Origin: Thermococcus sp. MAR1
GTDB taxonomy: Archaea; Methanobacteriota_B; Thermococci; Thermococcales; Thermococcaceae
Direction: 5' to 3'
Length of the DNA: 64,000 bases
Assembly (NCBI RefSeq): GCF_012027305.1
Contig: NZ_SNUF01000001.1
Location: forward strand, 868,001-932,000
This document shows, piece by piece, positions 34,985 to 38,648 of this stretch. Position 1 is the stretch's first letter; each line of letters begins with the position of its first letter. The notes beneath the pieces were generated by a model. The model searched no databases. It was not told where the DNA came from and worked only from the letters and a program-made list of their open reading frames with translations. Both the position numbers and the translations under genes were made by a program.

Positions 34985-35329
34985 TTACTCCTCCAGCCAG
35001 ACTGAGTCATCGCCGTAGTAGTTCAGCTTGACCACGAAGAGCCTGAACGGTTCATCCCGCTCGTTGATTACCCAGTGGACGGTTCTCGGCTTTACCAGGA
35101 AGATGTCGCCTGGCTTCGCGAGGTATTCCCTTTCGCCGATGCCGAGCCTCGCCTCGCCGCTTATTATGTAGAACAGCTCGTACTGGTGTTTGTGGTAGTG
35201 CTTCTTAACAGTCTGCCCCGGCTTGACCTCGACTATCTGGGCGTAGCCTCCTTCTGGGAGCTCTCCTTCGAAGAGGGGGAGCTTCCGGTAGGTGCCCCTG
35301 TCGATGAGGTTTTTGATTTCGGCCTTCAT
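34985..35329 (-). CDS. Small cupin-domain protein
   Basis: A 114-residue single cupin: [28 protein letters not shown] (about 38-65) holds motif 1 histidines, and [18 protein letters not shown] (about 72-89) holds motif 2. It resembles the sugar-isomerase-like cupins (type II PMI C-terminal). It lacks a ribosome binding site and lies about 26 nt below a GTTTATTTT element (about 35353-35361), so it is probably leaderless. It is followed by the racemase gene. Substrate unknown. Confidence 0.8.
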
Positions 35330-35470: not shown

Positions 35471-35818
35471 TCAAAATGCATGTTCAGCATGCCGTATCTT
35501 TGAAACCCTCCACTGAAAAATCAGTCCTTCTGCAAGTGCGAAGATTCCGAGTATTAGGAGATTGTACCCTATGGTATAGCCCTTTGTGTAGTCAACGAAT
35601 CCCAGCGCCAGCAAAATTGTCCCAATTATGGCACTAATCACTCCAACTTTCCTGGGCGCTTTTTTGTAGGTAAACTCTATTGCTAACATCGGTACCAAGT
35701 ATGTTAACACAGTCATCCCGAGGGCTAAAAGGGGTCTGTTTTTTAGGCCCATATAATACCCCAAGAATATCAGGACAGAAAGGGCCGTAATTTCGCCAAC
35801 TCTACTTTTCTCATTCAT
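35471..35818 (-). CDS. Small membrane protein downstream of cysteine-rich gene
   Basis: A 115-residue hydrophobic protein with about four membrane segments (ITALSVLIFLGYYMG, LLALGMTVLTYLVPMLAIEF, VGVISAIIGTILLALGFV, IGYNLLILGIFALAEGLIF). No family is recognised. Its ATG at 35818 overlaps the stop region of the cysteine-rich gene, so they form one operon. Such a small membrane partner beside a secreted cysteine-rich peptide gene could be an immunity protein, but this is inference only. Confidence 0.65.
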   Translation of the reverse strand: MNEKSRVGEITALSVLIFLGYYMGLKNRPLLALGMTVLTYLVPMLAIEFTYKKAPRKVGVISAIIGTILLALGFVDYTKGYTIGYNLLILGIFALAEGLIFQWRVSKIRHAEHAF

Positions 35819-36519
35819 GGCGCATTCCCCCAGTCTTGGCAGAGACTTCCCCATTCAGTACAGCAGTAATCTGCAGTACACCAACCGCATTCTGCTACAA
35901 CACAGGCTATGCAGACTTCTTCTCCCAGTCTGCAAAGCCATTTACAATGGCCTGCTTGCAGGCAACAAGAAATTGCGCATCCCCAGTCAGTTGAACAACA
36001 ATATGGCTCACAACTGCTGAATTCTCCACAGTCATTATTTGAATTGCAGTCGTGTGGGCAACTATTAGCTGTTTTATACTGTCCATTAGTTGTTAAAGCC
36101 ACCGTCTTCACCACTGGATTATCCAACTCAAGAAGATATCCTCTAACCTTCACTCCTTGTACGGGTTTTGAGAACTCGTACAGTGCTATCACGTGCTTCT
36201 TGTCCTTCAATGGAATTCCCATGGCGAGCATTGTTATCTTCTCACCGTTGTACTCAATCGTGTGCTTCACAATCTTAACGTGCGAGTAGTCAACGTCCCA
36301 GGGTTTGGCTAATTTCCAGAAGTCCCTGCTCGTTGCCAGCTTTAGGAAAACGTGAGCCTTCGACCAGTTTTCCTGAACCCTGCTTACGGGTGTTGTAACC
36401 CTGAAAGGATTCACGCAGCCGTTGACCTCCGGATACTTGGGGTAGCTCACCACGTACGCCCCATAAGCTCCAATCAACAGCAAAACCACAAACATGGCCA
36501 GCAGTGCACGCCTCCGCAT
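35815..36519 (-). CDS. Secreted/membrane-anchored protein with 18-cysteine C-terminal tail (bacteriocin-like)
   Basis: A 234-residue protein. Residues 6-27 form an N-terminal signal/anchor. Residues about 30-150 are a folded domain with one cysteine (C35). Residues 154-227 hold 18 cysteines, including paired CC at 174-175, 185-186 and 219-220, and many Trp/Gly. The layout (signal, N-terminal domain, cysteine-rich tail) recalls halocin C8-type archaeal bacteriocin precursors; no database search was possible. GGGGGGT precedes the ATG at 36519. It is cotranscribed with a small membrane protein and divergent from tldD. The surroundings look AT-rich. Confidence 0.7.
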   Translation of the reverse strand: MRRRALLAMFVVLLLIGAYGAYVVSYPKYPEVNGCVNPFRVTTPVSRVQENWSKAHVFLKLATSRDFWKLAKPWDVDYSHVKIVKHTIEYNGEKITMLAMGIPLKDKKHVIALYEFSKPVQGVKVRGYLLELDNPVVKTVALTTNGQYKTANSCPHDCNSNNDCGEFSSCEPYCCSTDWGCAISCCLQAGHCKWLCRLGEEVCIACVVAECGWCTADYCCTEWGSLCQDWGNAP

Positions 36520-36610
36520 CGACCCCCCCAACGGGATTTTGCATACATATTATACTGTCAATAATATATAAGAATTATTTCAACCAAAGGTTTAAAACTA
36601 AACTCGCGAA

Positions 36611-36639
36611 AGTATACTTATGCTTGCTAAATGTATACT
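36611..36639. repeat. Inverted repeat AGTATAC ... GTATACT between divergent genes
   Basis: Two perfect 7-bp arms separated by 15 bp, between the cysteine-rich gene promoter (ATATAAGAA near 36565) and tldD. It may be an operator for the divergent pair. Each arm also contains GTATAC, itself palindromic. No regulator gene is adjacent. Confidence 0.5.
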
Positions 36640-36791
36640 ATCGTTCGAAACCTCTTAACTGAGGAATGTCTGAAACTCCAGACTTAAGTCCATTCCGTTT
36701 AGATATTCCTTTCGACCCACATCGAAAGGCTCAAAAGACTTTTATACCCAGCCCGCGATTCATCAGTGAACAGATAGAAACGGTGGTGACC

Positions 36792-38159
36792 ATGGAAGCG
36801 CTGGAGAAAGCCCTCCGCTGGGCGGAGGAAAACCTGAAAGCGGACTACATAGAACTCCGCTACGAGAACCTGAGAAAGACGACCCTTGCCCTCAAAGACG
36901 GCGTTTTTACCAGCTTTACAGGGAAGCTGAACAGGGGCGTTGCGATAAGGGTCTTGGCCGATGGAGCTTGGGGATTCGCCTCGACGAGCGATCTAAACGA
37001 CCTTGAGAGGAAGATCGAGGAGGCCTACAAGCTGGCCAAAGCGGCAGCGGAGACCAAGAAGGAAAAGATAGAGCTGGCCGAGATAAAGCCGGTCGAGGAC
37101 TTCGTGAAGAGCAGGATGAAAGTCAAACCGGCGGAGGTTGACATAGAGGAGAAGGTAGCTCACCTGAGGGAGCTGGAGAGGCTTTTAAAGGCCGATGAGG
37201 CCGTCAAGAGCGTTCAGATACGCTACGAGGACGGGAGCGGCGAGAAGATACTCCTTACCAACGAAGGGACGCACATAGAGTGGGACTACAACTACCTCTA
37301 CCAGGGAGCCTACGTCACCGGAAAGGCCGATGGAAAGCTGGCCATGGCGAGGGACAGCATAGGTGCGGTGGACTACGGCTGGGAGCTCATGACGGAGCAC
37401 GAGCCAAACGAGAAGGTCACCGAAAGAATTCTCAGAAAGATGCACAGCCAGCTGAAAGGAATAGCCCCGAAGCGCGGCGAGTGGCCGATTGTAGCCGGCC
37501 CGATTGTCGTTGGAATAATAGCGCACGAAGCTCTTGGCCACCTCGCAGAGGCTGACCTGACCATAAACTCGCCCTTCAAAGACCTCATCGGCAAGCAGAT
37601 TGCCCCGGAGTACGTCACGATGAGCGAGCGCTACGTTGAGGGTGGCTTTGGCAACGACCGCTATGATGACGAGGGAGTTCCTGTTAAGGACATTCACATC
37701 ATCGAGAACGGAATCCTCAAGGAGATAATGCTGAACAGGGAATACGCCCACAAGTGGGGCATGGAGCCGAACGGCCATGCCAGGGCCGAGAGCTACCGCT
37801 ACCCGCCGATAATCAGAATGCGCAACACGGTTTTCGAGCCTGGTGATTACTCCTTCGAGGAGCTGATTGAAGATATTAAGTTCGGCTACTACGTGGTTGA
37901 CTTCCGCGGTGGCCAAGCCCAGCTCAACTCGGCATTCCAGGTTGGTATCCAGGAGGGCTACGTCATAAGGAACGGCGAGATAGCGGAGCCGATAAGGGAC
38001 ACGTCCATAACAGGCGTTGCCATCGAGGCTCTCAAGAAGATTTCAGCGGTCGGAAAGGACTTCGGCCTTGAGGTCGGCTTCTGCGGAAAGGGACAGACGG
38101 CCTTTGTGAGCTCCGGTGGCCCGCATATGCGCTTTGACGGGGGAATACTGATTGGCTGA
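36792..38159 (+). CDS. tldD: TldD-type metalloprotease subunit
   Basis: A 455-residue TldD/PmbA protein with the zinc motif HEALGH at 245-250 (HExxxH), which distinguishes the active TldD subunit. With TldE it forms a heterodimeric peptidase that in bacteria trims unfolded peptides and matures modified peptides such as microcin B17. A longer frame begins at 36666, but GGTGGTGACC precedes the ATG at 36792 and homologues start there. TATA CTTTTATACC at about 36739-36748. tldE follows after two small genes. Confidence 0.92.
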   Translation: MEALEKALRWAEENLKADYIELRYENLRKTTLALKDGVFTSFTGKLNRGVAIRVLADGAWGFASTSDLNDLERKIEEAYKLAKAAAETKKEKIELAEIKPVEDFVKSRMKVKPAEVDIEEKVAHLRELERLLKADEAVKSVQIRYEDGSGEKILLTNEGTHIEWDYNYLYQGAYVTGKADGKLAMARDSIGAVDYGWELMTEHEPNEKVTERILRKMHSQLKGIAPKRGEWPIVAGPIVVGIIAHEALGHLAEADLTINSPFKDLIGKQIAPEYVTMSERYVEGGFGNDRYDDEGVPVKDIHIIENGILKEIMLNREYAHKWGMEPNGHARAESYRYPPIIRMRNTVFEPGDYSFEELIEDIKFGYYVVDFRGGQAQLNSAFQVGIQEGYVIRNGEIAEPIRDTSITGVAIEALKKISAVGKDFGLEVGFCGKGQTAFVSSGGPHMRFDGGILIG

Positions 38160-38424
38160 GGTTAACTTCACCGAACATGCCATTGAAGCTATGAAAAAGA
38201 GGAATATTGCCCCCGAAGAGGCCATCAATGCCATAGAAAAGGCCGAACTCAGGGCAGTCGATACGCTAACGGGACACTTTGTAGCCATAAAGAAAAACGG
38301 AAAGTGGACTGTGGCAGTTTACGATGTTTATGGCCAAAGCCTGGAAGTGGTGACCGTTTACAGAGTCTCAAGAAAGGCTCAAATAGAGAACCGCCTAAGA
38401 AAAGGCAGGTGGGTTGGGATATGA
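38152..38424 (+). CDS. DUF4258-type protein, putative toxin of a pair
   Basis: A 90-residue protein starting with TTG inside the last codons of tldD. FTEHAIEAMKKRNIAPEEAINAIEK (helical start) followed by GHFVAIKKNGKWTVAVYDVYGQSLEVVTVYRVSRKAQIENR matches DUF4258, a RelE-related fold often found beside DUF2283. Overlaps the next gene by 4 bp. Toxin activity is inferred from the pairing. Confidence 0.75.
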   Translation: MAEVNFTEHAIEAMKKRNIAPEEAINAIEKAELRAVDTLTGHFVAIKKNGKWTVAVYDVYGQSLEVVTVYRVSRKAQIENRLRKGRWVGI

Positions 38425-38648
38425 AGGTCAGATACGACCCAGTTGGGGACGTCCTGTACATTGAGGTGGCCCATGAAAAGGCCGCCGAGACCGTGGAGCT
38501 GGATGAAGATTTGCTGATTGACTACGACGAAAGAGGCAACATCGTAGGGATAGAAGTATGGCGCGCCAGGGAAGTTCTCCTCGGGGAGATGCTGAAGAGA
38601 ATTAAGGAACTCGGTCTGAAGTTTGAGACTGCTGAGGTGGAGGGGTAA
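38421..38648 (+). CDS. DUF2283 protein, putative antitoxin
   Basis: A 75-residue protein: MKVRYDPVGDVLYIEVAHEKAAETVELDEDLLIDYDERGNIVGIEVWRARE is the DUF2283 core, with a helical tail. DUF2283 proteins frequently pair with DUF4258. A longer in-frame reading starts at 38304, but the ATG at 38421 overlaps the previous stop and fits the family start. It lies 2 bp before tldE, so the pair is embedded in the tldDE operon. Confidence 0.8.
   Translation: MKVRYDPVGDVLYIEVAHEKAAETVELDEDLLIDYDERGNIVGIEVWRAREVLLGEMLKRIKELGLKFETAEVEG

Follow-up and report, generated by a model that had tools for sequence, protein, structure and literature searches.

The window, a stretch of 64,000 nucleotides from the genome of Thermococcus sp. 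MAR1, contains a cassette of two overlapping genes flanked by tldD and a cupin gene (Table 1). The first gene of the cassette encodes a precursor protein that is our toxin candidate (ATG at 36519, TGA at 35815-35817), and the second a small membrane protein, called the partner in what follows, which overlaps the precursor gene by four nucleotides (ATGA). The divergent tldD lies upstream, while the cupin gene and a racemase gene follow downstream. A preliminary description of the pair had its coordinates, strand and divergence from tldD right, as well as the overlap at the precursor stop; the four helices it assigned to the partner correspond to three to four predicted transmembrane segments. 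Between tldD and tldE (38152-38648, plus strand), the window also has small ORFs, one of 90 aa and one that reads as DUF2283-like from its translation; in most relatives tldD is close to tldE.

The N-terminal anchor that had been described for the 234-residue precursor was found as its single hydrophobic segment, residues 6-24, preceded by an Arg-rich start. By the positive-inside rule, this arrangement should leave the tail extracellular. There are 19 cysteines in the precursor, and all except C35 belong to the tail segment listed in Table 1, whose count of 18 had been reported correctly; they include three CC pairs, at 174/175, 185/186 and 219/220.

Table 1. Positions of the genes, protein segments and neighbouring features (window coordinates, except for the last row)
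Feature	Position	Strand	Basis or remark
Precursor, toxin candidate, 234 aa	35815..36519, stop codon included	-	ORF and homologues
Residues 1-24, predicted N-in signal anchor, highly conserved	36448..36519	-	Hydrophobic segment and alignment
Residues 25-146, conserved N-domain made of a helix and an antiparallel sheet	36082..36447	-	Alignment, AF2; closed by an invariant NG (alignment)
Residues 147-234, polymorphic Cys-rich tail	35818..36081	-	Tail comparison, AF2
The 18 cysteines of the tail, residues 154-227	35839-36060	-	
Residues 177-216, helical insert of hydrophobic character, with the greatest variability within the tail	35872..35991	-	Identity, GRAVY, AF2
Partner (type I3), membrane protein of 115 aa and predicted cognate immunity protein	35471..35818, stop included	-	
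Putative TATA-like element (CTTATATATTATTG)	36559..36572	-	About 40-50 bp 5' of the precursor start; read from the sequence
Recombination tract versus G012	36189..36819	.	DNA identity, high over most of the tract; stops where N-half and tail join
tldD, neighbour outside the cassette, marks the insertion hot spot	36780..38159	+	
Cupin gene, borders the hot spot on the other side	34985..35329	-	
Tandem arrays of 2-4 small genes, each for a different immunity-like membrane protein, between tldD and cupin	L104 2001-3888; L106 180-2069; L103 3053-4237		Positions within each locus

Neither the precursor nor the partner gave a meaningful match in NCBIfam, Pfam, PADLOC or PHROGs, and a sequence search of the PDB returned nothing significant; the precursor family is unrecognised by existing protein-family libraries. 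Of the 94 Thermococcaceae genomes searched over their whole length, 41 carry the precursor, and these represent five of the six genera; many of the compared genomes are metagenome assemblies. An alignment-profile search over the phylum found it in 46 of 115 genomes and 5 of 12 genera, with no relative outside the Thermococcaceae at E ≤ 0.01; plasmids and viral contigs yielded no relatives either. Decayed precursors are frequent and take the form of frameshifts, stops and leader-only remnants, and in several genomes the signal anchor (residues 1-24) persists on its own. Long proteins with a leader-like N-terminus in G001 and G060, one of which carries a peptidase-like HELTH motif, were judged unrelated. 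A small hydrophobic ORF stands 3' of the precursor in all 30 open frames analysed. When tails of the same type are compared, dN/dS is mostly 0.05-0.6, which indicates mostly purifying selection; the exception is the G077/G074 tail pair, where the ratio exceeds 1 on very few substitutions. The homologues, the hydrophobic ORF after every frame and the mostly purifying selection together argue that the gene pair is real.

Tail types, partners and tail anatomy

The conservation of the precursor is very uneven. Over the 30 open frames, the mean pairwise identity is 71% for residues 43-126 and 23% for the tails with Cys-Cys matches excluded, and the tails fall into 14 types by single linkage at 40%. 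These thresholds are arbitrary; independent of them is the Mantel test, in which tail and partner are correlated with r = 0.76 (p = 2e-4) and still with 0.76 after control for the N-half, versus only 0.08 for N-half and partner. With the partner taken as the nearest hydrophobic downstream ORF, BLASTP matches between partners were found in 18 of 24 same-type pairs, and among the 411 different-type pairs in only one (permutation p = 5e-5); this lone match, G006/G054, involves tails that are visibly similar. Comparison across the genomes shows co-inheritance of tail and partner. In three same-type comparisons the partners do not match, being remotely similar (z 4-5) in G052 versus G000/G063 and in G010 versus G055/G058, and dissimilar in G017 versus G089/G083, so that not every adjacent membrane gene need be cognate. 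The partners range from 75 to 140 aa and have no signalling domain. Relatives of the window's own partner type, I3, occur only in G063, which has the same tail type, and in an orphan array of G060. The I12 partner (75 aa) turns up repeatedly in the final position ahead of the cupin gene and is possibly a resident there.

How the tails are exchanged can be seen by comparing the window genome with G012, a member of another genus. In tldD the two are 80-83% identical at the DNA level, i.e. about 17-20% different, and in a stretch that begins about 300 bp before the precursor and reaches into its N-half the identity is ~94-100%. It drops over codons 80-110; the tail and everything after it, the partner among them, are at background. 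G039/G017 and G051/G036 break in the same way, close to nucleotide 360 of the gene. Unrelated tails are carried on near-identical N-halves, and a tail of the G012 type is also found in G051 and G001, which makes three genera. Such comparisons show modular swapping, and the breakpoints suggest that the conserved N-domain would serve as the stretch of homology for replacing tail and partner together.

All 30 tails have an even number of cysteines, 14, 16, 18 or 20, a parity that would arise by chance with a probability of ~6e-5 if the 14 types were independent. The preliminary description had called the composition extreme. It is indeed unusual, and the even count throughout the relatives fits full disulfide pairing outside the cell and not metal binding. 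The most conserved parts of the tail are the motif C-x3-C-x5-(D)C-x5-C-x3-CC at its start and G-x2-C at its end. Between types, the insert (residues 177-216) has an identity of 13% versus 34% and 23% for the flanking frame; its GRAVY value stays between +0.7 and +1.5 across the types, and the tail as a whole is acidic. An AF2 model of the tail alone, built on an alignment of at most 8 sequences, places two long strands around four short helices (pLDDT 81.5, pTM 0.63). In structure searches the best matches of this model were weak WAP or cystine-dense ones, a half of SLPI and omwaprin (Z 3.2-3.3, rmsd 2.5-3.3 over 34-35 residues). Omwaprin was also the best sequence match, at a non-significant E of 0.12, and the Pfam WAP HMM matched no tail at E ≤ 10. 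The tail may thus be pictured, from the model, as a disulfide frame presenting a variable and possibly membrane-active insert, with the likeness to the WAP frame serving as a lead only. For the N-domain, the best matches were StARkin- and cystatin-like folds; at Z < 6 and Foldseek E > 0.5 these are uninformative, and no convincing relative emerged.

Orphan partners

Homologues of the partner that lack a toxin are common. At the precursor sites they lie downstream of an active or decayed precursor, on the same strand. In G014 and G016, a leader remnant is followed by the final 28-29 residues of a tail of the G010 type, and after these come four different partner types and the cupin gene; a remnant of this kind, leader plus tail end, precedes each of the three arrays in Table 1. 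Other orphans occur as pairs in G023, G069 and G013, the last without any toxin, and further ones stand behind the precursor in G060. Comparison of these loci shows displacement of the toxin with retention of its partner. The genomic features by which polymorphic toxin-immunity systems are recognised, namely swapped C-terminal domains, a co-varying downstream partner, and orphan cassettes with effector remnants, were all found in this family.

Two side observations were made on such genes. An orphan I1-type partner ~358 bp 3' of the precursor has an open frame in G010 (L053) and G007 (L054) and is apparently frameshifted in G011 (L058), which has the same active cassette upstream; it is apparently an unused immunity gene decaying between close relatives. 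In G077, G078, G080, G083 and G089 (L061-L064, L066) there are more small hydrophobic ORFs near the cassettes that could not be typed, for example of 103-112 aa ('MKTDNSLFLVSIFGVLLGG...', 'MKKTGVEERGLAFIPLF...'), and these may be immunity genes for tail types not seen in our set.

A candidate toxin-immunity module and its alternatives

We read the pair as a polymorphic bacteriocin-like (archaeocin-like) toxin-immunity module, with a probability of about 0.77. That the locus encodes a secreted or anchored Cys-rich precursor with an immunity-like partner had been suggested before, and the suggestion gains support from the co-variation, the tail swapping, the orphan arrays and the even cysteine counts. 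The precursor is predicted to be exported and held in the membrane by its N-terminus, and the N-domain would carry a cystine-dense tail, modelled by AF2 as a WAP-like frame with the variable hydrophobic helical insert, its disulfides deduced from the cysteine parity. A protease cutting near the conserved NG boundary could free the tail, or the tail could act by contact while on the surface; in either form its target would be the membrane of close relatives or a protein in that membrane. The overlapping membrane protein, judging by its co-variation, would shield the producer against its own tail type. Comparison of the loci shows how new tail-partner pairs come in: homologous recombination takes place in the DNA that the cassettes have in common, upstream and in the N-domain, the earlier toxin decays, and its immunity gene persists downstream, where arrays can build up. 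Among the genes at the sites examined there was no dedicated protease, transporter or regulator.

Two other readings start from known peptide antibiotics, and both were touched on in the preliminary description. The cassette might encode a peptide matured by TldD/TldE in the manner of microcin B17, as suggested by the divergent tldD in the window and at the about 15 loci where an intact precursor copy stands beside tldD. However, about half of the intact copies are elsewhere, next to cobalamin-salvage, adenosylhomocysteinase, Elp3 or aldehyde ferredoxin oxidoreductase (AOR) genes and more (names read from translations); tldD is present in 89 of the 94 genomes, irrespective of the cassette, versus 41 for the precursor; no modification enzymes are encoded nearby; and the empty site is common, with the tldD and cupin starts ~115-120 bp apart in a dozen cassette-free genomes. 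We therefore reject TldDE maturation as a general requirement and find the microcin-like reading hardly credible. The link is positional, as had been cautioned: the tldD/cupin intergenic region is one hot spot, and tldD is not a functional partner as far as the data show. The second reading, a true archaeocin of the halocin C8 family, draws on the same layout of exported precursor, N-domain, Cys-rich tail and small membrane partner, and on the similar build of thermococcal halocin C8 precursors. Yet TIGR04449 matched no member of the precursor family at E ≤ 1 in the 94 genomes, although it matched eight other places above the cut-off; NCBIfam gave nothing at E ≤ 10 for the eight tails tested; and hhalign, with small alignments, assigned a probability of 0.1% to the tails against nine thermococcal halocin C8 tails and 0.3-0.4% to the N-domains. 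Family membership finds no support in TIGR04449 or hhalign, and we hold the reading to be very improbable; the likeness proposed earlier is an analogy of layout and probable function.

Co-variation itself leaves room for a pair that does no killing, since a ligand and its receptor would yield the same tail-partner statistics. The membrane protein could be a receptor or antagonist for a tail that serves as surface tag or pheromone, in an Agr-like or a self/non-self system. Since an obvious signal-peptidase motif is absent from the anchor, the tail may remain tethered, and for VARTIG, a hypervariable surface-protein module of Thermococcales, self/non-self recognition is among the hypotheses (PMC8416519). 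Against such contact or kin recognition stand the small partners devoid of signalling domains and the arrays kept without a ligand in G014, G016 and G013, as immunity predicts, while a receptor lacking both ligand and signalling domain has no evident use; on balance we consider this alternative unlikely. The very high cysteine content could also belong to an exported metal-binding or redox protein next to a membrane gene by chance. In that case one would have to explain cysteines that vary in number and spacing between types and are always even in count, together with a partner that co-varies; nor did the tail match a metal-binding family, an outcome the preliminary description had allowed for. 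There seems to be next to no room for this explanation.

The toxin-immunity reading can be taken one step further, to a new archaeal toxin class in which the exported N-domain would be a recombination platform for interchangeable cystine-dense membrane toxins and the membrane immunity genes would form memory arrays, in analogy with T6SS effector displacement transposed to a two-gene bacteriocin system of hyperthermophilic archaea. About this joint proposal we are evenly divided. If the pair works in the way we propose, it would be a widespread, strain-specific weapon of hyperthermophilic archaea, present in 41 of 94 genomes. Its toxin specificities would number at least 14, every one paired with a predicted antidote gene, which would allow killing-and-immunity matrices to be tested directly in a genetically tractable, harmless archaeon. 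The tails would then amount to a naturally occurring library of small, heat-stable peptides with multiple disulfides, and the orphan arrays would extend immunity memory by effector displacement beyond the bacterial T6SS. No bacteriocin of Thermococcales is described in the open-access literature that we searched. Archaeal toxins and antimicrobial peptides were surveyed in mBio in 2019 by Makarova et al., who reportedly expanded halocin C8 greatly and listed analogous candidates, and the precursor family may already be among them.

Comparison with known systems

A close parallel in organisation is with the polymorphic toxin systems (Zhang et al. 2012, PMC3482391), which share an N-terminal part, a swappable C-terminal effector and an adjacent cognate immunity gene. 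In the T6SS of V. cholerae, successive additions of effector-immunity pairs displace the old effectors and keep their immunity genes 3' (PMC5361080), and the orphan immunity genes so retained resemble the arrays described above. The window system differs from both in being archaeal, in consisting of a single small self-anchored protein with no delivery machine at the locus, and in having a cystine-dense, membrane-type effector instead of an enzyme.

Halocin C8 (TIGR04449; L079-L090) offers the likeness of an exported archaeal precursor with a conserved N-part and a Cys-rich C-terminal peptide, followed in several thermococcal cases by a small membrane protein. A single gene directs both the production of halocin C8 and immunity to it, as the title of Sun et al. 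2005 states, whereas the window pair has a separate predicted cognate gene. Genuine halocin C8-domain precursors do occur at other Thermococcales loci (L079-L085, L089, L090), in two families with different conserved N-domains of about 230 and 180 aa and with variable Cys-rich tails; these are probably parallel polymorphic toxin systems. VARTIG likewise joins a hypervariable exported protein to distinct membrane proteins in Thermococcales (PMC8416519); its proteins are much larger and of the Ig-domain type, and the comparison made is one of layout. Finally, the WAP and other cystine-dense peptides, such as the SLPI half and omwaprin, share the frame C-x3-C-x5-DC-x5-C-x3-CC with the tails. The resemblance is probably convergent, and in the thermococcal tails the frame is split by the variable hydrophobic helical insert of ~28-49 residues.
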